Made by a program: the position numbers and the translations under genes. A model generated the notes under the pieces. It worked only from the letters and a program-made list of their open reading frames with translations. It was not told the DNA's origin and ran no database searches. Below are positions 31,114 through 47,567 of a DNA stretch of 64,000 bases, in pieces; position 1 is the first letter of the stretch, and the number at the start of each line of letters is the position of its first letter. Source of the DNA: Rhodopseudomonas palustris (lineage in GTDB: Bacteria; Pseudomonadota; Alphaproteobacteria; Rhizobiales; Xanthobacteraceae); contig NZ_CP140155.1 of NCBI RefSeq assembly GCF_034479375.1, positions 124,001-188,000 of the forward strand. Direction: 5' to 3'.

Positions 31114-32031
31114 CTATTCCGGAGGGGTCTCGTCCGATCGCAATGCTGAAGCGCGATCATTTCCGGTCTCGCCTGCGAGATCGCGCGCGGCGCGCACCAG
31201 CGCGCCGTCCGGTCGGCGCAGTTCGGCCAGAATCGAGAAGTGATTGTGCCCGGCGATCGGCAGCAGCAGCCCCGGTGCGCCGGCAGCGCTGCGACGCGCG
31301 TGAAGATTGATGGAATCCAGCACCAGGGTCGGTAGTTCGTCGTCGCCATAAGCGAGGTCGAGCCGCTTGTCGATCACCGGCAGCCGCAGCGGCGACAGCG
31401 TTTCGATCTCGGCGTCGGTCAGTTGCAGGGCCGTGTTCAGGCCGGTGTCGCGAAGCGGCGCGAGATCGAACACGCCCGAGATCGACAGGCCGGCCGCGAC
31501 CAGCGGATGGTCGAGCGTCATCGCCACGAGATGGCCGCCGGCCGACCAGCCCGAGGTGACGACCGGACCGGCGACGCCGTGGTCCGGCGCATGCGCGGCA
31601 AGCCAGTCCAGCGCCTGCCGCACCTCGTCGACGATTTCGGTGAGCGATACTTCGGGCGCCAGCGAATAACCGGGGATCGCCATCGACCAGCCATGCGCTG
31701 CGACGCCTTCGACCATCATGGCGAACAGCTCGCGCGTGTTCTTCTGCCAGTAGCCGCCGTGCAGGAACAACAGGCAGGGCGCATCCGGGTCGGCCGCAGG
31801 ATAGAGGTCGATCTTGTTGTTTTTCCTCGGGCCGTAGGGCAGGTCGAGCACCGATCGCAACGTCGCGCGCGCCCGCGCGGAGGTCGCGTTGCGTTCGGCG
31901 ATCAGCTCCGGGCTGTTCGCGACCGCGGTGTTGTTGTCGTAGGCGGCGTCGCGCTCGCTCTGTGAAAGCTGCGCCCAGCCGGCTCTCGGATCGGCAGGGC
32001 GGTTCGCTCCGGATTCGTGCGCGTCAGGCAT
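31114..32031 (-). CDS. Alpha/beta hydrolase, kynurenine formamidase-like
   Basis: A 305-residue cytoplasmic alpha/beta hydrolase. It carries the oxyanion motif HGGYW (typical of arylformamidases), the nucleophile elbow GWSAGGH and a C-terminal His in AGHNHFS. The start at 32031 overlaps no upstream gene and lies 2 bp after the MarR stop, so it is the last gene of the island's minus-strand operon. Its presence in a nicotinate pathway suggests it cuts an amide or formyl group from a ring-opened intermediate. The reference 2-formylglutarate route needs no such enzyme, so its true substrate is unclear. Confidence 0.82.
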   Translation of the reverse strand: MPDAHESGANRPADPRAGWAQLSQSERDAAYDNNTAVANSPELIAERNATSARARATLRSVLDLPYGPRKNNKIDLYPAADPDAPCLLFLHGGYWQKNTRELFAMMVEGVAAHGWSMAIPGYSLAPEVSLTEIVDEVRQALDWLAAHAPDHGVAGPVVTSGWSAGGHLVAMTLDHPLVAAGLSISGVFDLAPLRDTGLNTALQLTDAEIETLSPLRLPVIDKRLDLAYGDDELPTLVLDSINLHARRSAAGAPGLLLPIAGHNHFSILAELRRPDGALVRAARDLAGETGNDRASALRSDETPPE

Positions 32032-32033
32032 CG

Positions 32034-32495
32034 CTATTTCAATCGTTCGAGCAGGCTGAGGAACTGCGCGCGCTCTTCCTTCGCGAGCGGGGACAGCGTC
32101 GCTTTGGTGATTTCTTGCGCCAGCGGAATGGATCGCTCCGCCAGCGCCGTGCCTTCCGGCGTGAGCGCCACCAGCAGGCGGCGGCCGTCCTCCGGATCGG
32201 CGCTGGTTTCCAGCAGGCCGCGCTTCACCAGGCGCTCGACCACGCCCTTGATGGTGGCGGCGTCCATCGCCGTGTGCCGGCCCAGCAAGTTCTGCGAACA
32301 CGGCCCGAGTTCCCGGAGCTTCGCGAGCGCGGCCCATTGCGTCATCGTCAGATCCTCGCCCATGCGGCCGACGAAGATCGTCGCATGACGCTGCAGCACC
32401 TGACGCAGAACGAAACCGACCTGGGCGTCGAGGACATAAGCCGATCCGCTCTTGCTCTTCGTGCGCCGCTTGTCCGATAGGCTCTTCTTACCCAA
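32034..32495 (-). CDS. MarR family transcriptional regulator
   Basis: A 153-residue winged-helix regulator. MTQWAALAKLRELGPCSQNLLGRHTAMDAATIKGVVERLVKRGLL is the DNA-binding core and DGRRLLVALTPEG the wing. The start is uncertain. There is no ATG near the N-terminus, so either the TTG at 32495 (MGKKSLSD) or a GTG at 32525 that overlaps the livF stop is used. The known nicotinate regulator NicR is also a MarR protein, so this gene is the natural candidate to bind the repeated 20-bp boxes at the island's promoters. The effector is likely nicotinate or 6-hydroxynicotinate. Confidence 0.82.
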   Translation of the reverse strand: MGKKSLSDKRRTKSKSGSAYVLDAQVGFVLRQVLQRHATIFVGRMGEDLTMTQWAALAKLRELGPCSQNLLGRHTAMDAATIKGVVERLVKRGLLETSADPEDGRRLLVALTPEGTALAERSIPLAQEITKATLSPLAKEERAQFLSLLERLK

Positions 32496-32521
32496 CTCGT
32501 CGCCCCGCTGCCCCGTCCTGG

Positions 32522-33226
32522 TCACACCGCAAGATAAGCGTCCCGGATTTCGGGATGCGCCTCGAGCTCGTCGATGGTGCCGGAGAATCGAATTCGTCCC
32601 TTCTCGATAATATAGGCGCGATCGCAGATCAGCTTGGCAAAATGCAGGTTCTGCTCGGAAATCACGATGCTGAGCCCTTCGCGTTTCATCGCCAGAATGG
32701 CGTCGGCCATCTGCTCGACGATCTTGGGCGCCAGCCCCTCCGACGGTTCGTCCAGCAGCACGAGCGAGGGGTTGCCCATCAGCGTGCGGCCGATGCTGAG
32801 CATCTGCTGTTCGCCGCCGCTCATGTCGCCGCCCAGCCGTTTGCGCATTTCGCCGAGATTGGGGAACAGTTTGTAGATCCGGTCCGGCGTCCAGGCCGCG
32901 ACGCCGGGGCGGGCCTTCTGGCGGCCGACCTCGAAATTCTCCTCGACGCTCAGCTCGGTGAAGATCCGCCGGTCCTCCGGCACGTAGCCGAGGCCGCGAC
33001 GCACGATCTCGTAGGGCGGCATCCGCGAGACGTCCTCGCCTTCGAACGTCACCTTGCCCGCGCGGCGTGACACCAGCCCGACCACCGATCGGAAGGTCGT
33101 GCTCTTGCCCGCGCCGTTGCGCCCCAGCATCGCGACGACCTCGCCTTCGCCGACCGCGAATCCGACGTCGAACAGGATATGGGCCGGCCCGTAAAAACTG
33201 TTGAGGTCGGAGACTTCGAGCTTCAT
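32522..33226 (-). CDS. livF: Branched-chain-type ABC transporter ATPase LivF
   Basis: A 234-residue ABC ATPase of the HAAT family. It has Walker A GRNGAGKST, signature MSGGEQQMLSIGR, Walker B LVLLDEP followed by SEGLAPKIVEQM, and the closing EAHPEIRDAYLAV typical of LivF. The start overlaps the livG stop as ATGA. It works with LivG on the fused permease encoded upstream. The operon's catabolic genes make nicotinate or a related pyridine acid the likely cargo, which is inference. Confidence 0.92.
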   Translation of the reverse strand: MKLEVSDLNSFYGPAHILFDVGFAVGEGEVVAMLGRNGAGKSTTFRSVVGLVSRRAGKVTFEGEDVSRMPPYEIVRRGLGYVPEDRRIFTELSVEENFEVGRQKARPGVAAWTPDRIYKLFPNLGEMRKRLGGDMSGGEQQMLSIGRTLMGNPSLVLLDEPSEGLAPKIVEQMADAILAMKREGLSIVISEQNLHFAKLICDRAYIIEKGRIRFSGTIDELEAHPEIRDAYLAV

Positions 33227-34005
33227 TGCACGGCCTCCTTGCGGTGCTTGGGATCGTAGAGCAGGCCATCGCCGAGATAGATCGCCTGGACATGCGGATC
33301 GCTGCGGACCTGCTGCGGGGTGCCGCGCGCGACCAGTTGGCCGCGGTTCAGCACCATCACCTCGTCCGCATGTTCGAACACGACGTCCATATCGTGCTCG
33401 GTGAACAGCACGCCGATGTTCTTCCGGCGGGCGATGCCGGCGGTGAGGCGCATCAGCTCGACGCGTTCCTTGGGCGCCATACCGGCGGTGGGCTCGTCCA
33501 TCAGCAACAGCCGCGGCTGATTGGCCAGCGCCACGGCCAGCTCCAACCGCTTCAGATCGCCGTAAGCCAGCTCGCCGCAGGGCCGCCCGGCCTGCTCTTC
33601 CATGCCGACGAGGACGAGAAGTTCGTTCGCCTCGGCGAGATAGCTCGCGCCCGCATAGCCGACCAGCGACCACAGCCGGCGATGAAACGACAGCAGCGCG
33701 ACCTGAACGTTCTCGCGCACCGTCATCGACGAAAACGTCGCGGTGATCTGAAAGGTGCGCCCGACGCCGCGCCGCCACACCGTGCGCGGCGGCAGGCCGA
33801 CGATCTCATCATCGGCCAATTTGATCGATCCGGCGTCGGGCCGGATCTGGCCGTTGAGCATGTTGAAGCAGGTGCTCTTGCCGGCGCCGTTGGGGCCGAT
33901 CAGCGCCAGGATTTCGCCGGGGCGCACCGAGAAGCTGACGTCGCGCACCGCATGCACGCCGGAATAGGACTTCACCAGCCCCTTCACATCGAGAAGCGCG
34001 GTCAT
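33223..34005 (-). CDS. livG: Branched-chain-type ABC transporter ATPase LivG
   Basis: A 260-residue ABC ATPase of the HAAT family. It shows Walker A GPNGAGKST, the LivG-typical GVGRTFQITATFSSMTV, LAYGDLKRLELAVALA in place of the common signature, and Walker B LLLMDEPTAGM. The start overlaps the permease stop as ATGA. A long open frame continuing to 35442 in this phase is a shadow of the permease gene. Confidence 0.92.
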   Translation of the reverse strand: MTALLDVKGLVKSYSGVHAVRDVSFSVRPGEILALIGPNGAGKSTCFNMLNGQIRPDAGSIKLADDEIVGLPPRTVWRRGVGRTFQITATFSSMTVRENVQVALLSFHRRLWSLVGYAGASYLAEANELLVLVGMEEQAGRPCGELAYGDLKRLELAVALANQPRLLLMDEPTAGMAPKERVELMRLTAGIARRKNIGVLFTEHDMDVVFEHADEVMVLNRGQLVARGTPQQVRSDPHVQAIYLGDGLLYDPKHRKEAVQ

Positions 34006-35915
34006 TCGGCGGCCTCCATCTTGGCGATCCCGAGCGCGTCGGACTTGCCCGCGGCCGCCGGTCCGGCGCCGTTCGGCGCGGGCGGCCGGCGATGGCGCCA
34101 GTCCTCGATGAAGCCGACGATGCCCTTGGGCGCCGCCACCACCAGCAGCACGATGATCGCGCCGAGCACGAGCTTGGACAGATCGGTCTGGCTCATCAGC
34201 CAGATCGCCAGCGCCTTGTAGACGATCGCGCCGACCACGGCGCCCGACACGGTCTCGATGCCGCCGAGCAGCACCATCACCAGGCCGTCGACCGAGATCG
34301 GGATCGCCAGCGATTCGGGAAACACCGAGCCCTTGAGGAACGCGAACAGCGCGCCGGCAACGCCGGCGAAGGTGCCGGCGACGATCAGCGCGGCCCACTG
34401 CACCGATTTGCGGTCGATGCCGATCGCGTCCGCGCGCAACGTGTTGTCGCGCGTCGCCCGCAGGCCAAATCCGTAGGGCGAGAACACCAGCATCCGCAGC
34501 AACGCCACGCCGGCGACGACCACGCCGAGGGTCAGCCAGAAGAAGCCCTGCGGGGTCGACGCCCAGGCCGACGGCCAGATCCCGAGAATGCCGTTGTCGC
34601 CGCCGGTCACCTCGACCCACTGGAACGCGATCGACCAGATGATCTGCGCGAAGGCCAGCGTCAGCATGGCGAAATACACGCCCGAGAGCCGCACGCAGAA
34701 CCAGCCGGCGACGACGGCCCCGATCAGGCCGAACACCGGGCCGACCAGCAGTGCCAGTTCCATCGGGGCGCCGAGAAACTTGACGGCGAACGCCGCGCCA
34801 TAAGCGCCGAGACCGAAATAGGCGGCGTGGCCGAACGAGGCCAGCCCACCCACCGTCATCATGAAGTGCAGGCTGGCGGCGAACAGCACGAACACCAGAA
34901 TCTCCGCGCCGACGCTCAACAGATAGTTGCCGGCGAACAGCGGCAGGCCGGCCGCCGCCACGACCAGCACCGCGGCGCCGATGCGCTCCCATTGCGACAG
35001 CGGCTTCCACGGCCGGAACGAGATCCCGGCGCTGGCGCGGACGCCGCGCTCCGCCTTGCCGAGCAGTCCGTAGGGCCGAACCACCAGCACCACCGCCATC
35101 ACCAGGAACACGGCGACCAGTGAGATCTTCGGCAGCACCAGAATGCCCAGCGCGTTCAATTCCGACACCAGCACCGCCGCGATGAAAGCGCCCGTCACCG
35201 AGCCGAGGCCGCCGATCACCACCACCACGAACACCTCGACGATGATCGACAGGTCCATGTAGTGGGTCACGGTGGTGCGCGGGATCTGCAGCGCGCCGCC
35301 GAGCGCGGCCAGGAACACGCCGAGCGCGAACACGCTGGTGAACAGCCATTTCTGATTGACGCCGAGGCAGGCCACCATGTCGCGGTCCTGGGTCGCGGCG
35401 CGCACCAGCACGCCCCAGCGGGTGCGGTGGAACAGCAGCCACAAGGCGCCGAGCACCGCCGGACCGAGCACGATCAGCAGCAGGTCGTAGGTCGGCACCA
35501 GCCGGCCGAACAGGCTGAACGCGCCTGTGAAGTAGGGCGCGCGCGGGCCCATCAGATCGTCGGCGCCCCAGATCAGCACCACGATGTCCTGCACCATCAG
35601 CGTCACGCCGAAGGTGGCGAGCAACTGGAACAGTTCCGGCGCATGATAGATCCGGCGCAGCAGCACCATCTCCATCAGCGCGCCGAGCACCGCCACGATC
35701 AGGCTGGCGGCGACGAGGCCGCCCCAGAAGCCGAGCGGGCCCGAGAAGCGGTCGGTCAGCGTGAAGGCCACGTAGGCGCCGAGCATGTAGAACGCGCCGT
35801 GCGCGAAATTCACGATGCGGGTGACGCCGAAGATGATCGAAAGCCCCGACGCCACCAGGAACAGCGACGCAGCGCTGGCGAGACCGCTGAGGGCCTGGAC
35901 CAAGATCAGTTCCAC
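34002..35915 (-). CDS. Fused branched-chain-type ABC permease (LivH-LivM)
   Basis: A 637-residue inner-membrane protein that joins both permease subunits. Residues 1-290 are LivH-like (ASGLSIIFGVTRIVNFAHGAFYMLG; coupling region AATQDRDMVACLGVN). About residues 320-600 are LivM-like (LASFGHAAYFGLGAYGAA; GLRATRDNTLRADAIGID). The join is a short charged linker (GKAERGVRASAGISFRPW). Such LivHM fusions are known in rhizobia. The C-terminal 35 residues are a Pro/Ala-rich tail. A 108-bp gap without a gene separates it from the binding-protein gene upstream. Confidence 0.9.
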   Translation of the reverse strand: MELILVQALSGLASAASLFLVASGLSIIFGVTRIVNFAHGAFYMLGAYVAFTLTDRFSGPLGFWGGLVAASLIVAVLGALMEMVLLRRIYHAPELFQLLATFGVTLMVQDIVVLIWGADDLMGPRAPYFTGAFSLFGRLVPTYDLLLIVLGPAVLGALWLLFHRTRWGVLVRAATQDRDMVACLGVNQKWLFTSVFALGVFLAALGGALQIPRTTVTHYMDLSIIVEVFVVVVIGGLGSVTGAFIAAVLVSELNALGILVLPKISLVAVFLVMAVVLVVRPYGLLGKAERGVRASAGISFRPWKPLSQWERIGAAVLVVAAAGLPLFAGNYLLSVGAEILVFVLFAASLHFMMTVGGLASFGHAAYFGLGAYGAAFAVKFLGAPMELALLVGPVFGLIGAVVAGWFCVRLSGVYFAMLTLAFAQIIWSIAFQWVEVTGGDNGILGIWPSAWASTPQGFFWLTLGVVVAGVALLRMLVFSPYGFGLRATRDNTLRADAIGIDRKSVQWAALIVAGTFAGVAGALFAFLKGSVFPESLAIPISVDGLVMVLLGGIETVSGAVVGAIVYKALAIWLMSQTDLSKLVLGAIIVLLVVAAPKGIVGFIEDWRHRRPPAPNGAGPAAAGKSDALGIAKMEAAE

Positions 35916-36023
35916 GGCGACGCCTTTCGTGCTGGAGGAGGAGCGTGGTGCGCTCGGTGCCCGCCGCTGAGGTCAGCGGCGGACAGTCGCGGAGGAGAAA
36001 GCAGCCTCATGCCGCCCCGGGCT

Positions 36024-37220
36024 TCAGTTCGCCGGACGAAGCTTGGCGGCCTCGGCCTCGGGCGGCAGATAGTCGGCGCCCTTCTTGAACTGGATGTCCA
36101 CCATGATGCCCTTGCCGTCCTTCTGCGCGGTCTTGCCGACATAGGCGCCCATCGTCGACTGGTGATCGCCGGCGCGGTAGACGACCGCACCGAACGGGGT
36201 GTCGACTTTCAGGTTCTTCATCGCCTTGACCAGGCCGTCGGTGGAGTGATCGTCGGTGGCGGTCAGCACGGCGGCGATGGTCTTCACCGTGGCGTAGCCG
36301 ACCACGGAGCCCAGTCGCGGATAGTCCTTGTTGAGCTGCTGATAGGCGTCCAGGAACGCTTTGTGCTCCGGCGTGTCGATCGCGTACCAGGGATAGCCGG
36401 TGACGATCCAGCCTTCCGGCGTCTCGGTCTTCAGCGGGTCGAGATATTCCGGCTCGCCGGTGAGATAGCTCACCACCGCGCGATCCTTGAACACGCCGCG
36501 GGTATTGCCTTCGCGCACCAGCTTCACCAGGTCGCCGGCGAAGGTGGCGTTGAGGATGGCGTCGGGCTTGGCGGCGTCGATCGCCTGCAGCACCGGGCCG
36601 GCGTCGATCTTGTTCAGCGGCGGCCACTGCTCGGCCACGAATTCCACGTCGGGCCGCTTCTTCTTCAGCAGGTCCTTGAACGCGGCCACGAACGACTGGC
36701 CGAATTCGTAGTTGGGCGCGATCGTCGCCCACTTCTTGGCCGGCAGCTTGGCGGCTTCCTCGGCCAACATCGAGGCCTGCATGTAGTTCGAGGTGCGCAG
36801 CCGGAAGGTGTAGTCGTTGCCCTTCGACCAGACGATCGCGTCGGTCAGCGGCTCCGCCGCGACGTAGAGGATCTTCTTCTGCTTGGCGAAGTCGGACAGC
36901 GCCAGGCCGATATTGGACAGGAAGCCGCCGGCGATCATCACCACGCCGTCGCGCGACACCAGCTCGTTGGCGGCGGTGAGCGCGTCGCCCGGCTTGCCGC
37001 CGTCGTCCTTGGTGATGACGACGAGCTTCTTGCCCTTGATGCCGCCGGCATCGTTGATCTGCTTCAGCGCCAGTTCCATGCCCTTGCGGTACGGCTCGGT
37101 GAAGCCGGGCAGTGCCGAATAGGAGTTGATCTCTCCAACCTTGATCTCGCCTTGCTGCGCATGTGCCGCGCCGGAAGCGAAAAGCAGTGCCGTCAAAGCC
37201 AGTCGTGCGATATGTTTCAT
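36024..37220 (-). CDS. Branched-chain-type ABC transporter substrate-binding protein
   Basis: A 398-residue periplasmic binding protein of the Leu/Ile/Val (type I) fold. The signal peptide is MKHIARLALTALLFASGAAHA, cleaved near residue 21. The mature part opens EIKVGEINSYSALPGFTEPYRKGMELALKQIN, typical of the family members used for aromatic or heterocyclic acids. It belongs to the LivHM-LivG-LivF importer and lies between the AA_synth genes and the permease, all in one direction. The ligand is probably nicotinate or a hydroxylated relative by context. The ATG at 37220 is chosen because it opens the signal peptide. Confidence 0.88.
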   Translation of the reverse strand: MKHIARLALTALLFASGAAHAQQGEIKVGEINSYSALPGFTEPYRKGMELALKQINDAGGIKGKKLVVITKDDGGKPGDALTAANELVSRDGVVMIAGGFLSNIGLALSDFAKQKKILYVAAEPLTDAIVWSKGNDYTFRLRTSNYMQASMLAEEAAKLPAKKWATIAPNYEFGQSFVAAFKDLLKKKRPDVEFVAEQWPPLNKIDAGPVLQAIDAAKPDAILNATFAGDLVKLVREGNTRGVFKDRAVVSYLTGEPEYLDPLKTETPEGWIVTGYPWYAIDTPEHKAFLDAYQQLNKDYPRLGSVVGYATVKTIAAVLTATDDHSTDGLVKAMKNLKVDTPFGAVVYRAGDHQSTMGAYVGKTAQKDGKGIMVDIQFKKGADYLPPEAEAAKLRPAN

Positions 37221-37318: not shown

Positions 37319-37903
37319 TCAGCGCAACCCGTCTTCGCCTTTGATCTCGGCGCTCGTCAGTCCGCCGACGCGCGGAAGCGGTCGGCCGGAATCCGTGATG
37401 GCCACCGCCACCACGATCTCGTTGGCGCGCGGCGCATCCGCCACGCTCACCTGCATGCCGTCGAAATGGCTGCGGACGAAGGCCGCGTCCTTGTGCCCGA
37501 GCGGAATGTCCAGCTCGGCGCCGAGGCCGCCGCGCCGCTTCGACGACGGAATCAGCGCCGCGCCCTTGCCCAGCACCTTGCGCACCGGCGCGCCCATCTT
37601 AGGGTGCAGCAAGGCTGCCGCGTGTTCGAGCTCGCCGTTCTCGCCGACGAGGGCTGCCTTGCCGTAGCTTTCGGCCTTGGCGCCGTCGATGCCGAGCGCG
37701 TCCACCGCCTTCTGCGCGAGCAGCCCGCCGAGTTCTTCTCCGATCGCGATCAGCTCCGAGAGATCCTCGACATAGCGGCCGGCGAACGGATTTTCGATCA
37801 CCGCCACCGCAGCCGCCCGCCGCGTCGGCGGCGTCACCGCACGGCCCATCTCGGTCAGCGTCTCTTCGACCACGACGACGATCTTGCGGATTTTCGCGCT
37901 CAT
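37319..37903 (-). CDS. AA_synth (DUF1185) family protein, copy 2
   Basis: A 194-residue protein of the amino-acid-synthesis family (PF06684 type), function not established. Conserved stretches shared with copy 1 are AVIENPFAGRYV near the N-terminus, YGKAALVGENGELEHAAALLHPK in the middle, FVRSHFDGMQV and the C-terminal EIKGEDGLR. Copy 1 overlaps it by four bases (ATGA). The pair lies between a UPF0280 gene and an importer gene in the nicotinate operon. They may form a heteromeric enzyme acting after ring opening; this is a guess from position only. Confidence 0.8.
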   Translation of the reverse strand: MSAKIRKIVVVVEETLTEMGRAVTPPTRRAAAVAVIENPFAGRYVEDLSELIAIGEELGGLLAQKAVDALGIDGAKAESYGKAALVGENGELEHAAALLHPKMGAPVRKVLGKGAALIPSSKRRGGLGAELDIPLGHKDAAFVRSHFDGMQVSVADAPRANEIVVAVAITDSGRPLPRVGGLTSAEIKGEDGLR

Positions 37904-38484
37904 CGCAGCCCGTCCTCACCCTTGATATCCGCCGCTTTGAGCCCGCCGACGCGGGCGTGAATCCGCGGGCCGGTGCTCATCACCAGCACCAGCGCGATCT
38001 CGTCGGCCTTGGGGCCGTCCGGGACGCCGACTTCCATCGCGTCGAAATGGCTGCGCACGTAGGAGGCGTTGACATGGGTCACCGGCACGTCGAGCCGCGT
38101 CCCCGGACCGCCGACCTTCTTGGTCGAGGGCACGATCGCCTTGGCGTCGCCGAGGATCTCGCGCATCGCGTAGCCGCCCGGCACGTGCCACAGCGCGCCG
38201 TGCTCCAGTTCGCCGGCGGCGCCGACGATGGCGCCCTTGCCGTAGCCGTCGATCGCCTTGGCGTCGCCGCCGAGCGCCTGCAGCAGTTCGCCTGCGAGCG
38301 CCACGCCGAGCGGCGTCAGATCGTCCATGAAGCCGGCGATGTCCTGAACGTAGCGGCCGGCGAACGGGTTTTCGATCACCGCGATGATCGCGCCGCGCCT
38401 CCGCGGCGTAGCCGCCACCGGGCCGCCCTCGTGGAAGATCTCCTCGGTGATCAGGAGCTTCTTGCGGATTTTGACCTCAGGCAT
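37900..38484 (-). CDS. AA_synth (DUF1185) family protein, copy 1
   Basis: A 194-residue protein of the same family and exactly the same length as its downstream neighbour, clearly a tandem duplicate that has diverged. Shared elements are IIAVIENPFAGRYVQDI, YGKGAIVGAAGELEHGALWH, YVRSHFDAMEV and DIKGEDGLR. No signal peptide or membrane segment is seen, so it is cytoplasmic. The start overlaps the end of the UPF0280 gene by 8 bp. Co-translation with both neighbours implies that the three products act together. Confidence 0.8.
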   Translation of the reverse strand: MPEVKIRKKLLITEEIFHEGGPVAATPRRRGAIIAVIENPFAGRYVQDIAGFMDDLTPLGVALAGELLQALGGDAKAIDGYGKGAIVGAAGELEHGALWHVPGGYAMREILGDAKAIVPSTKKVGGPGTRLDVPVTHVNASYVRSHFDAMEVGVPDGPKADEIALVLVMSTGPRIHARVGGLKAADIKGEDGLR

Positions 38485-39409
38485 CAGGCTGCTCTTGTTG
38501 TGGTTGCAAAGGAACGAAATTCGTTATGCCGGCGCTCGCGGTGTCTCCCTGCAAAGCGGTGTCTCCCTGCAAATGCAGGGCCGCGGCGTAGATCAGTCCG
38601 CGCGACAGAAGCGCGCGCGCCACGGTCACGCCCCCGGCGAGCGCCTCGGAACGCTCGGCTGCGCCGAGTCGCGGCACGTGCCGGGTAACCTGCAGTGTAC
38701 CCAGATCGCTGTCCGGTTGAAGATCGCATGCGGCCTCCCGGACGACACCGCGATGGCCGGGCAGGTCGACCGCATTGGCGACCACGGTCGCCGCCGCATC
38801 CGCCATCGCGGCGGTGGGCGCGAGGATCGTGACCGCATCGGCGATGCCGAGCGAGAAGCTGCGCCCGCGCCAGCCGCTGGTCGCGACGCCGCGCACCGGG
38901 CTGTTCGCATCGATCGTGGCGCGGCCGAGCAGGCGCGGCTGGTCCGGACGATCCACCAGCCCGACCGTGAAGCGCGCGCCTTGCGCCAGATGCAGCGCGA
39001 TGTCGCCGCCATTGTTGACATAAGCGCGGGTGATGCCGGGGCAGATCAGCGCTTTCAGGATGTCGTCGGCGACAGAGCCAGCCACCGCTGCCATTGGCGT
39101 GATGAAGAGTTCATCGGCGAATGGCGTCACCGCCTCAGCCATGCGCTGCGCGACCGGGTGGACCAGCGGCAGCACGTCGCGTCCGGCGGGCTTTCGCAGC
39201 GCAGGCAACTCGCCGCACAGCGCATCGAGCAGGCCGGCGAAGCGCTGCGTCGCCGCGGCATAAGCGTGCCGGACGGCGCGCGGGTCGCCGGTCGCCTCGA
39301 TGATCAGGTCGATCGGACCATCCTGTAAGTGCAAGCGCCGTCCGTCCGCCAGCATCGCCGCCTGCGGCGCGCGCCCCCGTGTTGGTGTGAGGAACTGCGG
39401 GGCGGCCAT
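38477..39409 (-). CDS. UPF0280 family protein (ApbE-like fold)
   Basis: A 310-residue protein of the UPF0280 family, which belongs to the ApbE/FAD:protein FMN transferase-like fold. Typical parts are AVAGSVADDILKAL, AYVNNGGDIALHL and VATSGWRGRSFSLGIADAV. ApbE proteins attach flavin to other proteins; whether UPF0280 does is not settled to my knowledge. The next gene upstream encodes 6-hydroxynicotinate reductase, an iron-sulfur flavoenzyme, so a role in its maturation is attractive but unproven. The ATG at 39409 lies 4 bp after the reductase stop; an overlapping start at 39439 is possible. Confidence 0.8.
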   Translation of the reverse strand: MAAPQFLTPTRGRAPQAAMLADGRRLHLQDGPIDLIIEATGDPRAVRHAYAAATQRFAGLLDALCGELPALRKPAGRDVLPLVHPVAQRMAEAVTPFADELFITPMAAVAGSVADDILKALICPGITRAYVNNGGDIALHLAQGARFTVGLVDRPDQPRLLGRATIDANSPVRGVATSGWRGRSFSLGIADAVTILAPTAAMADAAATVVANAVDLPGHRGVVREAACDLQPDSDLGTLQVTRHVPRLGAAERSEALAGGVTVARALLSRGLIYAAALHLQGDTALQGDTASAGITNFVPLQPQQEQPDA

Positions 39410-39413
39410 CGGA

Positions 39414-40910
39414 TCAGCCGAAGAAGCGCTTGGCCGCATTGGGAGCGAGCGGCCACGGGTTGTCGGAATGCGGCCCTACGGTCTGCAGGCCGTCGTTCAG
39501 AGCGATCGACGACACCGGCCGAACCTCGGCCATATGGCCGCCGAGTTCTTCGTAGTCCGACAGCCGCAGCGTGAATTCGATCGGCGCCACCAGGGCCGGC
39601 GTCGGCACGTAGCCGAATGCGTTCTCCGGCATCTTGGTCACGTCGACCATCAGCGTGATGCCGCCGCCGGGATAGACATAGACCGGCGCGCCGCCGCAGG
39701 TGACGTAGGTCAGCGCATCCTTCACCGAGTGGGTGAGGCGCACCGGATTTTCGGTGACGCCCGCGCGCAGCGAGCCGCCGGCGCCGGCCATGAACAGCAC
39801 CGTGGACAGCGCCGGCTCGCAATTGTCCTTCACCCGCTGCGACAAGGCCGCGAGCTCCGCCGGCATCTCCTTCTCGCGGGGAGAGAGCGTTTCGTCGAGT
39901 TCGTAGTAGGCCGCGTGTTCGCCGGTGGTCGAGATGAAGTACAGCCGCAGCCCCGGCCAGGCGACCTTGCGGTCGAACGGACCGAGGATCGACAGCGGGT
40001 CGGAAATGTTGGTGCCGCCCCAGCCGGTGCCGGGCTCGGCGACCTGGAAGTAACGGCCGGGCGTCGAGCGGCGGCCCTTGATCTTGATGCCGGTGTCGGG
40101 CACGCCGAGCACCTTGCCGGCCTGATGTTCGGACAAGACGCCGGTGATGTGATCGTCGACCACCACCACGTCGTCGACGAGGCCGAGCCATTGCTTGGCG
40201 AACATCCCGATGGTCGCCGAGCCGCAGCCGACCCGCATCCGCTCTTCCTTGACGCCGTTGACGATCGGCGGCTGGCCGGCCTGCACGACCACAGTCGATC
40301 CGCCGTCGATGGTGAGCTCGACCGCCTTGCCGTTGCACAGATCGAGCAGGATCTCGCAGGTGACGCGGCCTTCCTTCTTGCTGCCGCCGGTGAGGTGATG
40401 CACGCCGCCGAGCGACAGCATCTGCGAGCCGTATTCGGAGGTGGTGACGTGGCCCACGGCTTCGCCCGCGGCGCGCACGGTGGACTGCTCGGGACCGAGG
40501 AAGCGGTCGGTGTCGATCTTCACCTTGACGCCGCAGTAACTGAAGATTCCTTCGGTGACGACCGTCACCATGTCGACGCCGTCGACTTCAGAGGAGACGA
40601 TGAACGGCGCGGGTTTGTAGTCCGGATAGGTCGTGCCGGCGCCGATCGCGGTGACGAAGGTCTCGGGCGGTGCGATCAGTTGACCGTCCCAGGAGCCGTC
40701 GCGGTGAAACGGCACCACGGTGCCGCCATGCGCCAGCGCGCGGTCGAGCACGATATGCGGGTCGACGCGCACCAGGTCGCCGTTATGATTGGCGTAGCGA
40801 TCGCAGGCGCCGCTCATGCCGGGCTTGATGTAGCACATCACCGGACAGGCATCGCAGCGGATCTTTCCGTCGCTCGCTCCCTCGGTCCCGGCAGTGGTTT
40901 CGTCGGCCAT
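39414..40910 (-). CDS. hnr: 6-hydroxynicotinate reductase
   Basis: A 498-residue cytoplasmic enzyme matching the ferredoxin-dependent 6-hydroxynicotinate reductase of anaerobic nicotinate fermentation. It converts 6-hydroxynicotinate to 1,4,5,6-tetrahydro-6-oxonicotinate. A four-Cys iron-sulfur motif lies at residues 19, 22, 26 and 36 (CDACPVMCYIKPGMSGAC). A long conserved body follows with GVKVKIDTDRFLGPEQSTV and VGCGSATIGMFAKQWLGLVDDVVVVDDHITG. It is the first gene of the minus-strand operon and divergent from nicA. A reduced-ferredoxin supply is offered by the reductase at 45487. The ATG at 40910 is chosen because the frame upstream is low-complexity. Confidence 0.88.
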   Translation of the reverse strand: MADETTAGTEGASDGKIRCDACPVMCYIKPGMSGACDRYANHNGDLVRVDPHIVLDRALAHGGTVVPFHRDGSWDGQLIAPPETFVTAIGAGTTYPDYKPAPFIVSSEVDGVDMVTVVTEGIFSYCGVKVKIDTDRFLGPEQSTVRAAGEAVGHVTTSEYGSQMLSLGGVHHLTGGSKKEGRVTCEILLDLCNGKAVELTIDGGSTVVVQAGQPPIVNGVKEERMRVGCGSATIGMFAKQWLGLVDDVVVVDDHITGVLSEHQAGKVLGVPDTGIKIKGRRSTPGRYFQVAEPGTGWGGTNISDPLSILGPFDRKVAWPGLRLYFISTTGEHAAYYELDETLSPREKEMPAELAALSQRVKDNCEPALSTVLFMAGAGGSLRAGVTENPVRLTHSVKDALTYVTCGGAPVYVYPGGGITLMVDVTKMPENAFGYVPTPALVAPIEFTLRLSDYEELGGHMAEVRPVSSIALNDGLQTVGPHSDNPWPLAPNAAKRFFG

Positions 40911-41008: not shown

Positions 41009-41062
41009 GCATAAGGAATGGGCAGCGTCTGCCCAAACCATCATCGCGGTGCAAAACGGCGC

Positions 41063-41091: not shown

Positions 41092-41205
41092 CGGGACAGC
41101 AGGATCACCGCGAATGCAGGGTATCGGACGTGTCGGGACGAACTGAGTTTGCAGTGCACACTATCCGATCCGGCCACGTGCCGCTTGCTGCAGGGCACAA
41201 TTGAA

Positions 41206-41739
41206 ATGTCGTCCTCGGCTCTCACCGGCGGACCTGTTGTGCTGACCGTCAACGGCAGCACGTGCAGTTTCGATCTGCCGCGCGACACCAGGCTGATCTA
41301 TGTGCTGCGCAATGATCTCGGTCTCAATGGTCCGAAGTTCGGTTGCGGGCTCGGCGAATGCGGCGCGTGCACTGTGCTGATCGACGGCGTTGCGGCGCGG
41401 TCCTGCGTGGTGACGCTCAAGACCGTCGAGGGACGCGCCGTCACGACGCTCGAGGGCTTGGGCGAACTCACTGCATTGCACCCGGTGCAGGCGGCGTTCA
41501 TCGCGGCGCAGGCGGCGCAGTGCGGTTACTGCCTCAACGGCATGATCATGACCACCGTGTCGTTTCTCGCCCGCAACCCTGCGCCGACACTCGAGCAGGT
41601 GCGCGAGGCGCTGCGCTACAATCTGTGCCGCTGCGGCACCCATGTGGAAATCATGCGCGCCGTGATGGCCGCTGCCGGCCTGACGGCGATCGACGCCGAT
41701 CCTGATACGAGCGATGCAACGTCGGGTGGCCGACGATGA
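41206..41739 (+). CDS. nicA: Nicotinate dehydrogenase small (2Fe-2S) subunit NicA
   Basis: A 177-residue iron-sulfur subunit of a xanthine-dehydrogenase-family enzyme. The plant-type cluster Cys are in GCGLGECGACTV and the second cluster in QCGYCLNGM with NLCRCGTH. It passes electrons from the molybdenum subunit to the cytochrome part of NicB during hydroxylation of nicotinate to 6-hydroxynicotinate. Its C-terminal 20 residues are an acidic tail. The stop overlaps the nicB start as ATGA. The ATG at 41206 is chosen; the open frame upstream holds no conserved sequence. Confidence 0.9.
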   Translation: MSSSALTGGPVVLTVNGSTCSFDLPRDTRLIYVLRNDLGLNGPKFGCGLGECGACTVLIDGVAARSCVVTLKTVEGRAVTTLEGLGELTALHPVQAAFIAAQAAQCGYCLNGMIMTTVSFLARNPAPTLEQVREALRYNLCRCGTHVEIMRAVMAAAGLTAIDADPDTSDATSGGRR

Positions 41740-44700
41740 GCGAGCCCACGCCGGTCGCCTCGGAGCTACTCGCGCGCATCGGCACGCTGGCGGTGCTGCG
41801 GCCGTCGCAGCACGTCAAGGGTCTGGTGCCGACAGCGCCGCCTCCGGAAGGCGCGCTCGACCTGTTCCTGTATCTCGACGACGCCGGGCAGGTGCTCGCC
41901 TTCAACGGCCATGTCGACCTCGGCACCGGCATCCGCACTGCGCTGGCTCAGATCGTCGCCGAAGAACTCGACGTGCCGTTCGCCGCCGTCACCATGGTGC
42001 TCGGCCACACCTCCGGCACGCCCAACCAGGGCGCCACCATCGCTAGCGACAGCATCCAGGTCTCGGCCGCGCCGCTGCGGACGGCGGCGGCGCAGGCGCG
42101 GCATCATCTGATCACCCTGGCCGCGGCTGAACTTGCGCTGGCGCCTGACGATCTCACCGTCACCGACGGCATCGTGCATCCGCGCGGCGGCGCCAATATC
42201 GGCGTCTCCTACGCAGCGCTGCTGCAGGGCCGCAACGACCGCCTGATGCTCGCCGAGGGTGTCGCGCTGAAGCCGGTCGCCGAGCATCGCATCGTCGGCC
42301 AGCGCATCGCGCGCTCGGATATTCCCGCCAAGGCCACCGGCGATTTCGTCTATGTGCACGACGTGCGCGTCCCCGGCATGTTGCACGGCCGCGTGGTGCG
42401 GCCGCCTTATGCCGGAATCGATGCCGGCGACTTCATCAGTACCAGCCTGATCGGCGTCGACGAGACGTCCGTCGCGCATATTTTGGGCATGGTCGCCGTC
42501 ATCACCATGGGCGACTTCGTCGGCGTCGTCGCCGAGCGCGAGGAGCAGGCGGCCGAAGCCGCGCGAATATTGAAGGTGGAATGGAAGCCGCCGCCGCCGC
42601 TGCCGGATCTCGATGATCTTGCCACGGCGCTGCGCGCCAACCCGGCGACGACGCGGACGCTGCACGACAAAGGCGACGTCGATCGCGCCCGCGCCGACGC
42701 CGCGGTGCCGATGGATCGCAGCTATGTCTGGCCGTATCAGATGCACGGCTCGATCGGCCCGTCCTGCGCGGTGGCGGATGTGCGCGACGGCGCGGCGACG
42801 ATCTGGTCGGGCACGCAGAATCCCTATCCGCTGCGGCTCGACATTTCGGTGCTGCTCGGCCTTCCCGAGCAAGACATCGAGATCCTGCGCTACGAGGCAG
42901 CGGGCTGCTATGGGCGCAATTGCGCCGACGACGTTTCTGCGGATGCGGCGCTGCTTTCGCGCGCCGTGGGGCGGCCGGTGCGGGTGCAGTTGACCCGCGA
43001 GCAGGAGCACGCCTGGGAGCCGAAGGGCGCGGCGCAACTGATGGAGATTTCCGGCGGGCTGAACGCCGACGGCAGCCCGGCCGCGTATGATTTCGCGACG
43101 CGCTATCCGTCGAATGCGGCGACCACGCTGGCGCTGCTGCTGACCGGGCGGGTGCCGGCGAACAATCCGGTGTTCGAGATGGGCGATCGCACCGCGATCC
43201 CGCCTTATGCCTACGACAACATCCGCGTGAAGGTGCACGACATGGCGCCGATCGTGCGCGCCGCCTGGCTGCGCGGCGTCTCGGCGCTGCCGAATTCCTT
43301 CGCGCACGAGAGCTATATCGACGAACTCGCCGCCGCGGCCGGGGTCGATCCGGTGGAGTATCGGCTGCGCTATCTGCACGATCCGCGCGCCGTCGATCTG
43401 GTCAAGGAAGTCGCCGCGCGCGCCGGCTGGGTGCATCGCACCGGCCCGCGTCAGGAGGTGGTCGAGGGCGACGTCGTGCGCGGGCAGGGCATGGCCTATG
43501 CGCTGTACGTCCATTCGAAATTTCCCGGCTATGGCGCGGCGTGGTCGGCATGGGTCGCCGATGTCGAGGTCAACAAGGCGACCGGCGACGTCGCGGTGAA
43601 GCGCGTCGTGGTCGGGCAGGATTCCGGGCTGATGATCAATCCGGCCGGGATCGAACATCAGATCCACGGCAACGTCATTCAATCGACCAGCCGCGCGCTG
43701 AAGGAACAGGTGAGCTTCACCGACACCGCGGTGGCCGACAAGGAATGGGGCGCGTATCCGATCCTCACCTTCCCGGACGTGCCGGTGATCAACGTCGTGC
43801 TGATGCCGCGGCCGAACGATCCGCCGCTCGGCAGCGGCGAGTCGGCGTCGGTGCCGTCGGCGGCGGCGATCGCCAATGCGATCTTCGACGCCACCGGCGT
43901 GCGGCTGCGCGAGCCGCCGTTCACGCCGGAGCGGGTGCGGGCCGCGCTCGGCAATCCGATGCTGCCGCCGCCGCCAGCGCCGGCACCGAAGAGGCGGTCG
44001 TGGTTCGCGCTGGCCGGCGCGGCGCTGGTGGGCGCGCTCGGCATGGCGACGGTGGCGCTGCCGATCCGCGGTGCCATGGCGCCGATCGCGGCGCCCGATC
44101 CGGCGAGCTTTTCGGCCGAGATGATCTCGCGCGGACGGCAGCTCGCCGCGCTCGGCGGCTGCGCGGTGTGCCACACCGAGATCGGCGGCGTGACCAATGC
44201 GGGAGGTCGTCCGGTCGAGACGCCGTTCGGCACGGTGTATTCCACCAACCTCACGCCCGATCCGGAGACCGGCATCGGCCGCTGGTCCTACGCGGCGTTC
44301 GAGCGCGCGATGCGCGAGGGCATTGCGCGCGATGGACGGCATCTGTACCCCGCGTTTCCCTACGCCTCGTTCACGCGGACCTCGGATACCGACCTTCAGG
44401 CGCTCTACGCTTACCTGATGTCGCAAACGCCGGTGGTAGCGCCGACGCCCGAGGCGCGGATGGCGTTTCCGTTCAACATCCGGCCGCTGATGGCCGGCTG
44501 GAATACGCTGTTCCTGCGCACCGGCCAGATGCAGGCGGACCCCGCCAAAGCCCCGCAATGGAATCGCGGCGCCTATCTGGTCGAAAGCCTCGGCCATTGC
44601 GGCGCCTGCCACACGCCGCGCAATGCGCTGGGTGCCGAGAAGGCGCGAACGTCCTACTTGAGCGGCGGCGCCGTCGACGGCTGGCACGCGCCGGCGCTGA

Positions 44701-45287
44701 ACACGCTGTCCAGCGCGCCGATTCCATGGACGGAGGCCGAATTGTTCTCCTATCTGCGCACGGGGTTCTCGCAATTCCACGGCACGGCGGCCGGGCCGAT
44801 GGCGCCGGTGGTGGAGCAGCTCGCGGCGCTGCCGGATGCCGATATCCGCGCGATGGCGACGTATCTGGCCTCGTTCGCGCCGGCGCCCGAAGCGCAGCCG
44901 GCCGAGCGCGCCGCAGCGCTGCAGGCCGCGGCGACAGCCACGCTGCGGCCGCTGGATTCGCTCGGCGGCAAACTCTACGAAGGCGCCTGCGCGTCCTGCC
45001 ACAGCGACGCCGGCCCGACTTTGTTCGGCGTTCGCCCGGCGCTGGCGCTCAACACCAATGTTCACGCCGCGGAACCGGACAATCTGATTAGGGTCATTCT
45101 AGACGGAATACCTAGTCCGGCGGCCGCCGAACTGGGGGACATGCCTGGGTTCCGCCACAGTTTCGACGATAACCAGATCGCGGCGCTGGTCCGTTATCTC
45201 CGCGCCTCCTTCGCCCCCCAGGCGCCCGCCTGGGGCGGCCTGGACCAAGCGGTGGCGCGCCTGCGCGCCCACCGGGGATCTCACTGA
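41736..45287 (+). CDS. nicB: Nicotinate dehydrogenase large subunit NicB: molybdopterin domain fused to triheme cytochrome c
   Basis: A 1183-residue protein, the same build and nearly the same length as Pseudomonas putida NicB. Residues 1 to about 740 are the molybdenum-cofactor aldehyde/xanthine oxidase-type domain (GHVDLGTGIRTALAQIVAEEL, GQDSGLMINPAGIEHQIHGN). A membrane or export segment (WFALAGAALVGALGMATVAL) is at about 755-775. Three cytochrome c domains follow with CAVCH (near 809), CGACH (near 955) and CASCH (near 1086). It hydroxylates nicotinate at C6 using water and hands electrons to the respiratory chain rather than to NAD. It probably sits at the membrane with the hemes outside. 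Confidence 0.92.
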   Translation: MSEPTPVASELLARIGTLAVLRPSQHVKGLVPTAPPPEGALDLFLYLDDAGQVLAFNGHVDLGTGIRTALAQIVAEELDVPFAAVTMVLGHTSGTPNQGATIASDSIQVSAAPLRTAAAQARHHLITLAAAELALAPDDLTVTDGIVHPRGGANIGVSYAALLQGRNDRLMLAEGVALKPVAEHRIVGQRIARSDIPAKATGDFVYVHDVRVPGMLHGRVVRPPYAGIDAGDFISTSLIGVDETSVAHILGMVAVITMGDFVGVVAEREEQAAEAARILKVEWKPPPPLPDLDDLATALRANPATTRTLHDKGDVDRARADAAVPMDRSYVWPYQMHGSIGPSCAVADVRDGAATIWSGTQNPYPLRLDISVLLGLPEQDIEILRYEAAGCYGRNCADDVSADAALLSRAVGRPVRVQLTREQEHAWEPKGAAQLMEISGGLNADGSPAAYDFATRYPSNAATTLALLLTGRVPANNPVFEMGDRTAIPPYAYDNIRVKVHDMAPIVRAAWLRGVSALPNSFAHESYIDELAAAAGVDPVEYRLRYLHDPRAVDLVKEVAARAGWVHRTGPRQEVVEGDVVRGQGMAYALYVHSKFPGYGAAWSAWVADVEVNKATGDVAVKRVVVGQDSGLMINPAGIEHQIHGNVIQSTSRALKEQVSFTDTAVADKEWGAYPILTFPDVPVINVVLMPRPNDPPLGSGESASVPSAAAIANAIFDATGVRLREPPFTPERVRAALGNPMLPPPPAPAPKRRSWFALAGAALVGALGMATVALPIRGAMAPIAAPDPASFSAEMISRGRQLAALGGCAVCHTEIGGVTNAGGRPVETPFGTVYSTNLTPDPETGIGRWSYAAFERAMREGIARDGRHLYPAFPYASFTRTSDTDLQALYAYLMSQTPVVAPTPEARMAFPFNIRPLMAGWNTLFLRTGQMQADPAKAPQWNRGAYLVESLGHCGACHTPRNALGAEKARTSYLSGGAVDGWHAPALNTLSSAPIPWTEAELFSYLRTGFSQFHGTAAGPMAPVVEQLAALPDADIRAMATYLASFAPAPEAQPAERAAALQAAATATLRPLDSLGGKLYEGACASCHSDAGPTLFGVRPALALNTNVHAAEPDNLIRVILDGIPSPAAAELGDMPGFRHSFDDNQIAALVRYLRASFAPQAPAWGGLDQAVARLRAHRGSH

Positions 45288-45366
45288 TCGTCGTTTTTCC
45301 CTTCAGGTTGCCCGTTAATTCGGCGCGATTGCCTGAAATGTCCGCGCGGCACGGGCGTTTGCCGCG

Positions 45367-45414
45367 TTGACAGGGGCCGGGCGCCGATCCTATTTTCATT
45401 CGTGTACAAATGAA
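45367..45414 (+). promoter_or_regulatory. Promoter/operator of the ferredoxin reductase gene (box 3)
   Basis: The hexamers TTGACA (45367-45372) and TATTTT (45391-45396) are 18 bp apart. The box TTCATTCGTGTACAAATGAA (45395-45414) overlaps the -10 and is the best palindrome of the family (8 of 10 pairs). Binding here would block polymerase. It lies 73 bp upstream of the GTG start. Confidence 0.55.
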
Positions 45415-45486
45415 TTGGCCGCGACCCGCACGCACTGTTCTGCCGTGCCCTCCCGGCCGATCACACACCAACTCCGGAGTTCTCCC

Positions 45487-46260
45487 GTGAGCAATCTGAT
45501 GGAAGAGCGCGTTCTCTCCGTTCGCCACTGGACCGATCGTCTGTTCAGCTTCACCACCACCCGTGACTCCGGCTTCCGTTTCCGGAACGGCGAGTTCACC
45601 ATGACCGGCATCAGGATCGACGGCCGCCCACTGCTGCGCGCCTATTCGGTGGCGAGCCCGAACTACGAAGAGACGCTGGAGTTCTATTCGATCAAGGTGC
45701 CGAACGGCCCGCTGACCTCGCGCCTGCAGCACCTGAAAGAGGGCGACACCATCATCGTCGGCCGCAAGGCGACCGGCACGCTGGTGATCGACAATCTGCG
45801 CCACGGCGCGACGCTGTATCTGCTCGCCACGGGCACCGGCGTCGCCCCCTTCCTGTCGATCATCCGCGACCCCGAGACCTACGAGCGGTTCGAGAAGATC
45901 GTGCTGGTTCACGGCTGCCGGCAGGTGGCCGAGCTGGCCTATGGCGAGTCGATGGTGGCGGCGCTGCAGGATCACGAATTCCTCGGCGACGACGTCAAAG
46001 CCAAGCTGATCTACTACCCGACCGTCACCCGCGAGCCGTTCATCCACGAGGGTCGGATCTCGAAGCTGATGGACAGCGGCCAGCTCTACAGCGACATCGG
46101 CCTGCCGCAGCTCGACAGGTCGCGCGACCGCGTGATGCTGTGCGGCTCGACGCAGATGATGGTCGATCTGAAGAGCCGTCTGGCCGATCTCGGTTTCGAA
46201 GAGGGCAATCACGGCGAAGCCGGCGACTTCGTGCTGGAGAAGGCCTTCGCCGAGCGCTGA
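45487..46260 (+). CDS. fpr: Ferredoxin-NADP+ reductase
   Basis: A 257-residue bacterial-type (Fpr) flavoprotein. The FAD motif RAYSVASPNY is at about 55-64, and the NADP-binding loop LLATGTGVAPFLS and C-terminal VLEKAFAER are family hallmarks. It normally moves electrons between NADPH and ferredoxin or flavodoxin. Its position between nicB and the enamidase gene, under a shared-type operator, suggests that it provides reduced ferredoxin to 6-hydroxynicotinate reductase. It uses a GTG start at 45487 with GGAG seven bases upstream. No ferredoxin gene is seen in the island. Confidence 0.9.
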   Translation: MSNLMEERVLSVRHWTDRLFSFTTTRDSGFRFRNGEFTMTGIRIDGRPLLRAYSVASPNYEETLEFYSIKVPNGPLTSRLQHLKEGDTIIVGRKATGTLVIDNLRHGATLYLLATGTGVAPFLSIIRDPETYERFEKIVLVHGCRQVAELAYGESMVAALQDHEFLGDDVKAKLIYYPTVTREPFIHEGRISKLMDSGQLYSDIGLPQLDRSRDRVMLCGSTQMMVDLKSRLADLGFEEGNHGEAGDFVLEKAFAER

Positions 46261-46294
46261 TCCGGAATTTTCGGAGCGATCCCCTCGACGCGGA

Positions 46295-46341
46295 TTGCAA
46301 CAGCGTGGCGCGGCCGTAGAATTCGTATGTTCGCAAATGAC
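46295..46341 (+). promoter_or_regulatory. Promoter/operator of the enamidase gene (box 4)
   Basis: The hexamers TTGCAA (46295-46300) and TAGAAT (46317-46322) are 16 bp apart. TTCGTATGTTCGCAAATGAC (46322-46341) begins at the end of the -10. It matches box 3 at 13 of 20 and box 1 at 14 of 20 positions. The gene starts 30 bp downstream. Confidence 0.45.
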
Positions 46342-46370
46342 CGGGCTCACACCTTTCGGAGACGTCAGAC

Positions 46371-47567
46371 ATGGCTCACGATGCCGCCGCACCCACCGGA
46401 CCGACCAAGCTCGTCATTCGCAACATCGGCCTCCTGATCAGCGGTGACCTCGACAAGCCGATCCTCGACGCCGACACCATCGTCGCCGAGAACGGCAAGA
46501 TCACCGCGATCGGCCGGCTGAAGGACGTCGACACCGAAGGCGCCACCACTATCGTCGATGCGCACGGCGCCGCGGTCACTCCGGGGCTGATCGACAGCCA
46601 CGTCCATCCGGTGGCGGGCGACTGGACGCCGCGGCAGAGCCAGCTCAACTGGATCGATTCCTCGCTGCACGGCGGCGTCACCACCATGATCTCGGCGGGC
46701 GAGGTGCACTATCCCGGCCGGCCGCGCGACGTCATCGGCATCAAGGCGCTGGCGATCACCGCGCAGCGCAGCTTCTCCGCGTTCCGCGCCAGCGGCGTGA
46801 AGGTCCATGCCGGCGCTCCGGTGATCGAGCACGAAATGGAGGAGAACGACTTCAAGGAACTGGCGGCGGCCGGCGTCAAGCTGCTCGGCGAGATCGGCCT
46901 CGGTGGCGTCAAGGACGGTCCGACGGCGAAGAAGATGGTGGCGTGGGCCCGCAAATACGGCATCCAGTCCACCATCCACACCGGCGGCCCGTCGATCGCG
47001 GGCTCCGGACTGATCGACAAGGACGTCGTGCTGGAAGCCGGCACCGATGTCGTCGGCCACATCAACGGTGGCCACACCGCGCTGCCGGACGGACAGATCC
47101 GCTGCATCTGCGAGGGCTGCAAGGCCGGCCTGGAACTGGTCCACAACGGCAACGAGCGTTCGGCGCTGTACACGCTGCGGATCGCGCGCGAGATGGGCGA
47201 TCTGCACCGCGTCATCCTCGGCACCGACGGGCCGGCCGGCTCCGGCGTCCAGCCGCTCGGCATCCTGCGCATGATCTCGCTATTGTCGTCGCTCGGCGAT
47301 CTTCCCGCCGAGCAGGCGTTCTGCCTCGCCACCGGCAACACCGCCCGGATGCGCGAACTCGACTGCGGCCTGATCGAAGTCGGACGCGTCGCCGACTTCG
47401 TGATCATGGACGCGGCTCAGCATTCGGCCAGCTCGTCGCTGCTGGAGAGCGTGCGCCTCGGCGATCTGCCGGGCATCGGCATGACCATCATCGACGGCAT
47501 CGTCCGCAGTGAGCGCTCGCGCAACACCCCGCCGGCGACGCGGTTGCCCAGCATCGTCAAGGCCTGA
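46371..47567 (+). CDS. ena: Enamidase (1,4,5,6-tetrahydro-6-oxonicotinate hydrolase)
   Basis: A 398-residue amidohydrolase-superfamily enzyme resembling Eubacterium barkeri enamidase, a binuclear metal enzyme. It opens the reduced ring to 2-formylglutarate and ammonia. Metal-site residues are visible in DSHVHP (HxH), the bridging acid in LLGEIGLGG, a His in TIHTGGPS, GHINGGHTA, and the closing Asp in LGTDGPAGSG. It is cytoplasmic. It follows the ferredoxin reductase gene with its own promoter and operator-like box. No genes for the later clostridial steps (2-hydroxymethylglutarate dehydrogenase, 2-methyleneglutarate mutase) follow it. Confidence 0.88.
   Translation: MAHDAAAPTGPTKLVIRNIGLLISGDLDKPILDADTIVAENGKITAIGRLKDVDTEGATTIVDAHGAAVTPGLIDSHVHPVAGDWTPRQSQLNWIDSSLHGGVTTMISAGEVHYPGRPRDVIGIKALAITAQRSFSAFRASGVKVHAGAPVIEHEMEENDFKELAAAGVKLLGEIGLGGVKDGPTAKKMVAWARKYGIQSTIHTGGPSIAGSGLIDKDVVLEAGTDVVGHINGGHTALPDGQIRCICEGCKAGLELVHNGNERSALYTLRIAREMGDLHRVILGTDGPAGSGVQPLGILRMISLLSSLGDLPAEQAFCLATGNTARMRELDCGLIEVGRVADFVIMDAAQHSASSSLLESVRLGDLPGIGMTIIDGIVRSERSRNTPPATRLPSIVKA

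Follow-up and report, generated by a model that had tools for sequence, protein, structure and literature searches.

A UPF0280 protein as a possible maturation enzyme of 6-hydroxynicotinate reductase in a predicted reductive nicotinate island of Rhodopseudomonas palustris

What does a UPF0280 protein do in a gene cluster for nicotinate breakdown? The question is raised by a stretch of 64,000 nucleotides of Rhodopseudomonas palustris DNA (G000:C1:124001-188000, hereafter the window), taken from a genome that forms one contig of 5,305,909 bases. There, the gene for 6-hydroxynicotinate reductase (hnr, 39414..40910, minus strand), named from its identity to annotated relatives, adjoins a UPF0280/COG2122 gene on the same strand (38477..39439, start codon uncertain), whose product has the ApbE fold and is a putative maturation factor of Hnr. 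The genes listed in the initial annotation are all present as open reading frames (ORFs), but UPF0280 and two DUF1185 genes, which are conserved between hnr and the importer genes, had gone unmentioned.

The association between the two proteins extends to every Hnr genome sampled. In 289 evenly drawn genomes of the class, Hnr was found in 44 and UPF0280 in 45, and all 44 Hnr genomes have UPF0280 (Fisher P = 2e-51, a value that ignores relatedness). The 45th UPF0280 genome (G099) is without Hnr and holds a weak match (34% identity, E = 4e-5). In another sample, 299 genomes from the phylum that share four Hnr genomes with the first set, Hnr occurred in 21 and UPF0280 in 22, including all 21 with Hnr; the match in the extra genome (G558) covers 62 positions (E = 4.5e-4). 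The UPF0280 search scores seven or eight first-look candidates per genome, and absence holds at that sensitivity. In 43 of the 44 Hnr genomes of the class, the two matches share contig and strand and are separated by -61 to +104 bp. Here G064 and G087 count as adjacent on matches that are incomplete at contig ends, and where a match came in two pieces, as for Hnr in G028 and UPF0280 in G194, these are treated as one range. In G231 they fall on separate contigs of a 460-contig assembly. The one-contig genome G028 has its Hnr split over two overlapping ORFs (G028:C1:2969796-2971261), with UPF0280 next as usual. We also viewed 80 loci from named genomes, the top 80 among at least 588 relatives and many of them from Bradyrhizobium. 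UPF0280 is present in 78, at most 283 bp from hnr in 77 and 8.2 kb off in one; L075 and L101 have none in the locus, but one elsewhere in the genome.

It is worth asking whether the two genes simply move together. UPF0280 could be a pathway enzyme itself, or its tie to Hnr could result merely from transfer of the whole operon as one block, and the presence of Hnr on 26 plasmid records makes such transfer plausible. UPF0280 is, however, retained where other genes vary or are gone (another dehydrogenase, HyuA/HyuB, no DUF1185), and also where it does not adjoin hnr (L078, L075, L101), and we regard this explanation as rather improbable. That UPF0280 is a dedicated factor of some kind for Hnr appears likely.

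The nature of this factor is less clear. The protein scores 420.4 bits against the NCBIfam model NF003322 (UPF0280/PRK04334; cut-off 290) and 23.1 bits against Pfam ApbE (PF02424), below the cut-off of 25.6. When aligned with the ApbE of its own genome by hhalign (probability 50%, E = 1.6e-4), its conserved sites D214 (43/44), T218 (44/44) and S188 (44/44) correspond to the magnesium-binding Asp and Thr and the active-site Ser. The Hnr of Eubacterium barkeri reportedly carries a covalently bound flavin, and for this reason we propose that UPF0280 matures Hnr, perhaps as a cytosolic enzyme that takes flavin mononucleotide (FMN) from flavin adenine dinucleotide (FAD) and places it on a Thr or Ser residue of Hnr. 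UPF0280/COG2122 of nicotinate degraders would then be a flavin transferase with the ApbE fold, located in the cytosol and dedicated to Hnr, that operates without the ApbE His and attaches the flavin to an invariant Thr or Ser. We give this reading a probability of roughly 0.4.

At E ≤ 0.001, the window Hnr has no match among the families of Pfam and NCBIfam. Its identity is 63-76% with 17 relatives of the class and 62-71% with 26 copies on plasmids, of which 17 are annotated as 6-hydroxynicotinate reductase; the nearest named relative among the matches listed, which may omit the records closest to this genome, is 96% identical and comes from a metagenome bin of Rhodopseudomonas palustris. Across 51 Hnr sequences, eight cysteines show no or almost no variation, four of them arranged as CxxCxxxCx9C near the N-terminus, and Hnr is thus probably an iron-sulfur (Fe-S) protein. 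Five sites (92, 298, 378, 384, 417) have a G-x-T/S in which the first and last residues are invariant. Targets of ApbE are of the SGAT type, and Thr386 is named first candidate solely because the AGVT at residues 384-386 (SGVT in L075) comes nearest to it in form. In the weak Hnr model, this region and residues 92-104 are both of low confidence.

Several points weigh against flavin transfer, or against Thr386 as its site. Hnr lacks the canonical target motif of ApbE, the five G-x-T/S places leave the choice of site not unique, and the longest invariant run of Hnr (residues 92-104) holds Thr93 and Thr94, not Thr386. The covalent flavin of the E. barkeri enzyme enters the argument as background. 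Unlike the flavin transferases ApbE, Ftp and FmnB, UPF0280 is under the Pfam ApbE cut-off and has no counterpart of the general-base His (His273 in FmnB, His257 in Vibrio cholerae ApbE), whose position falls in an alignment gap. Given the relatedness of the genomes in the samples and the presence of the cluster on plasmids as well, the co-occurrence reflects fewer independent events than genomes. Finally, published work on the family points elsewhere: in the available text of PMC5764234, the homology of COG2122 to ApbE seemingly stops short of the flavin-binding region, and COG2122 is tied, together with DUF39, to homocysteine formation, for which both are required in Desulfovibrio vulgaris, while PMC12068725, in the part that is available, classes the Methanosarcina member MA1715 as a sulfur trafficking protein.

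These reports suggest a different service to Hnr, that of an Fe-S or sulfur-trafficking factor as proposed for methanogen COG2122. The probable Fe-S nature of Hnr, with its eight conserved cysteines, and the missing His of UPF0280 would agree with such a role. On the other hand, the fold, the magnesium-binding pair and the Thr-Ser pair of UPF0280 are those of flavin transferases, and no cysteine is found among its invariant or nearly invariant columns, which would be odd for a persulfide carrier. We consider a sulfur factor unlikely, if less so than a travelling block. The Methanosarcina and Desulfovibrio proteins belong to the same family by name and are likewise needed for one particular enzyme system. 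Their partner is DUF39 (PF01837), which was not found in the genome studied here, where the partner is Hnr; the DUF39 model HcyBio matched none of 18 Hnr sequences. By extension of the flavin transferase proposal, COG2122 of methanogens and sulfate reducers might modify its DUF39 partner in the same way, which is less likely.

Which route does the island serve? Its gene content identifies it, with high probability, as a catabolic island of the Azorhizobium/Bradyrhizobiaceae type encoding a reductive nicotinate pathway: NicAB, Hnr, enamidase and an ABC (ATP-binding cassette) importer are all present. Divergent from hnr, the plus strand carries nicA (41203..41739), for the nicotinate dehydrogenase small subunit with two 2Fe-2S domains (Fer2, Fer2_2), and nicB (41736..45287), for a molybdopterin subunit (MoCoBD_1/2) fused to a cytochrome c part (Cytochrom_C), in which three CXXCH motifs (residues 809, 955 and 1085) bear out the three c-type heme sites noted earlier. 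These genes are followed by a ferredoxin-NADP reductase gene (FNR, 45499..46260; longest ORF from 45367, true start uncertain), which matches NF008178 at E = 6e-47 and 159.9 bits, under that model's cut-off of 390, and by a gene for an enamidase of the amidohydrolase family (46371..47567) that matches the solved enamidase 2vun, which we take to be the E. barkeri enzyme, at E = 1.2e-107. On the minus strand lie genes for a MarR-family regulator (32034..32519; Pfam MarR, E = 2.6e-12), the LivF-type (32522..33232; ABC_tran) and LivG-type (33223..34014; ABC_tran and BCA_ABC_TP_C) ATPases, LivH-LivM type permeases in a single fused ORF (34002..35915; two BPD_transp_2 stretches), the importer's periplasmic substrate-binding protein (36024..37220; Peripla_BP_6, E = 7e-69) and the two DUF1185 proteins, ahead of UPF0280 and hnr. 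The enzymes, importer and regulator named in the initial annotation are thus upheld, the reductase through the annotation of its relatives and the available text of PMC3511419.

By analogy with homologues and the literature, the Liv-type importer would take up nicotinate, which NicAB would hydroxylate to 6-hydroxynicotinate, passing electrons through the c-type hemes to the respiratory chain. Electrons from reduced nicotinamide adenine dinucleotide phosphate (NADPH) would reach Hnr through FNR and ferredoxin, and Hnr would reduce the ring to tetrahydro-6-oxonicotinate, from which the enamidase would release 2-formylglutarate and ammonia by ring opening. Decarboxylation and oxidation would then lead to glutarate, glutaryl-coenzyme A (glutaryl-CoA) and crotonyl-CoA. 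Among the 80 loci, where, UPF0280 apart, neighbour counts are minimum values since contig ends clip some loci, FNR was matched in 30 and nicotinate phosphoribosyltransferase in 16, which is consistent with nicotinate as the substrate and with a ferredoxin-dependent step; the regulator was matched in 53 and the binding protein in 49.

A respiratory-type NicAB could also feed the oxidative route through NicC and NicX, with the reductive genes as mere passengers. Indeed, NicB is 61.5% identical to the NicB of an Azospirillum ramasamyi plasmid cluster (L257; Nic names assigned here from its annotation) that encodes a 2,5-dihydroxypyridine dioxygenase, so that NicAB alone is not diagnostic of the route. 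This cluster also has a MarR regulator in common with the island, and further holds a FAD monooxygenase, an alpha/beta hydrolase, a racemase and an amidohydrolase, whereas the island has Hnr, UPF0280, DUF1185, FNR and enamidase. With queries from L257, NicX (2,5-dihydroxypyridine 5,6-dioxygenase) had no match in the own genome at E ≤ 0.001, and NicC (6-hydroxynicotinate 3-monooxygenase) just two at 31% identity, which may be other FAD monooxygenases. Since NicX is without a match, NicC is matched only at 31% and a glutaryl-CoA dehydrogenase is encoded, the respiratory NicAB step followed by the reductive Hnr-enamidase route is supported, and we hold the oxidative alternative to be highly improbable. 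The dehydrogenase gene (L228:1417-2631, near G000:C1:4984790; E = 8e-185) indicates capacity, not use; the best match of its product is 4w9u, named acyl-CoA dehydrogenase, followed by 3gnc and others named glutaryl-CoA dehydrogenase. Across the class, NicX-family matches, mostly at 35-42% identity, occur in 38 of the 289 genomes, 23 of these with Hnr, and a mutual exclusion of the two routes would not follow from this sample.

An E. barkeri cluster for nicotinate fermentation, with Hnr and enamidase, is said to have been described by Alhapel in 2006. These two proteins are what it shares with the island, which has NicAB with c-type hemes in place of a four-subunit dehydrogenase and does not contain the clostridial tail genes: 2-hydroxymethylglutarate dehydrogenase, 2-methyleneglutarate mutase and the later clostridial enzymes are not among the island genes, and no genome-wide query for them was made. 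As a new genetic form of the reductive route of Azorhizobium, the island is not supported. By the legend and text of PMC3511419 (2012) that are available, clusters of this type, found by searching with the E. barkeri cluster of a cited 2006 study, are listed for Azorhizobium caulinodans ORS571 (AZC_2804-2790), Bradyrhizobium (japonicum) USDA110 (blr3818-3830), Rhodopseudomonas palustris HaA2 (RPB_1671-1658) and strain SG-6C. As described there they hold, like the island, genes for steps one to three together with an ABC transporter and conserved proteins whose function is not known; compared at that level and not gene by gene, they show no known difference from the island. A pathway new to print is thereby ruled out, and in this respect the island adds a further case to a cluster type already on record. 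The same source states that Azorhizobium continues via glutarate, and the presence of glutaryl-CoA dehydrogenase fits this ending. The fate of 2-formylglutarate, left open in the initial annotation, is clarified to that extent.

A candidate for the 2-formylglutarate step is the DUF1185/PF06684 pair. The two minus-strand genes (37319..37903 and 37900..38484) encode proteins 48% identical to each other that match Pfam AA_synth at 248.7 and 238.5 bits (cut-off 27; E = 3e-74 and 4e-71) and lie close to the solved structure 2qtp (E = 9e-92), presumably SPO0826. DUF1185 is present in 57 of the 289 class genomes (one under the family cut-off), 39 of them shared with Hnr. We viewed 20 DUF1185 genes away from Hnr, from 16 of the 18 non-Hnr genomes and four in Hnr genomes. 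Their neighbours, with families named from one representative each, include an alpha/beta hydrolase (10 loci), a luciferase-like monooxygenase (8), an aldehyde dehydrogenase (8) and a flavin reductase (6); an enamidase-like amidohydrolase (39-41% identity) stands beside DUF1185 in two loci, and in L201 a 71% identical enamidase does so in a genome with Hnr on another contig. In the available text of PMC7913881, TgnF of the trigonelline pathway is named a homologue of the DUF1185 protein HcdD, and efforts to detect an effect of HcdD are reported as unsuccessful. These neighbours, the TgnF homology and the retention of DUF1185 where HyuA/HyuB is present and no enamidase is seen together lead us to suggest, tentatively, that the pair may act after ring opening, on an aminomethylene/enamine or formyl diacid product. 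Its incomplete link to Hnr, with five of the 44 Hnr genomes lacking DUF1185 and 18 having it without Hnr, speaks against such a role.

Ring opening itself varies among related clusters. Enamidase was matched in 44 of the 80 loci, HyuA/HyuB-type genes without a visible enamidase in three (L097, L099, L107), and neither in 33, many of them clipped. Five of eight annotated Hnr plasmid regions viewed (L218, L219, L220, L265, L266) likewise have genes of this hydantoinase/oxoprolinase type and no enamidase seen, and keep Hnr, UPF0280 and DUF1185. Enzymes of the HyuA/HyuB type are often ATP-dependent, and they are likely the alternative ring opener where enamidase was not seen. A dehydrogenase with a separate FAD subunit (matched in 27/80 loci) replaces or accompanies the cytochrome-type NicAB near hnr in L095, L049, L061, L072, L074 and others, including Acidobacteria bins. 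Four plasmid clusters of the marine Roseobacter group (L221, L264, L265, L266) carry, immediately ahead of the importer genes, the alpha subunit of a Rieske ring-hydroxylating oxygenase; as a guess, it is perhaps a demethylase that feeds trigonelline into the route.

The interval of 31114..47567 given earlier holds these genes, but the conserved cluster spans about 32034-47567. The esterase-type alpha/beta hydrolase at its left end (31114..31965, minus; Pfam BD-FAE/Abhydrolase_3; best solved match Lipase 1, 9n8r, E = 4e-51) probably lies outside, since it was matched in none of the 80 loci. It was also rejected as NicD or as a 2-formylglutarate hydrolase, being unlike the hydrolase in the NicD position of L257. 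Further left are genes for an IucA/IucC-type siderophore synthetase (28459-30246) and an extracytoplasmic function (ECF) sigma factor (30516-31037), and a DUF3095 protein is encoded past the enamidase (47924-49075).

The observation behind the initial annotation was right, and its pathway reading was right in outline, while its novelty claim was not. What deserves pursuit is the possibility that UPF0280 acts as a maturation enzyme for Hnr. The cluster also suggests that 'amino acid synthesis', a label partly based on neighbours of the Liv type, is misleading for DUF1185, and that N-heterocycle breakdown is where many of its members serve. What the island adds is a test bed for UPF0280, a family of unsettled function that accompanies Hnr in every sampled Hnr genome (44/44 and 21/21). 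If UPF0280 does flavinylate Hnr, a family that occurs in both bacteria and archaea would have its annotation changed, and work with recombinant Hnr would need UPF0280 to be co-expressed. An extension to the DUF39 partner, if true, would recast a supposed sulfur-trafficking protein.

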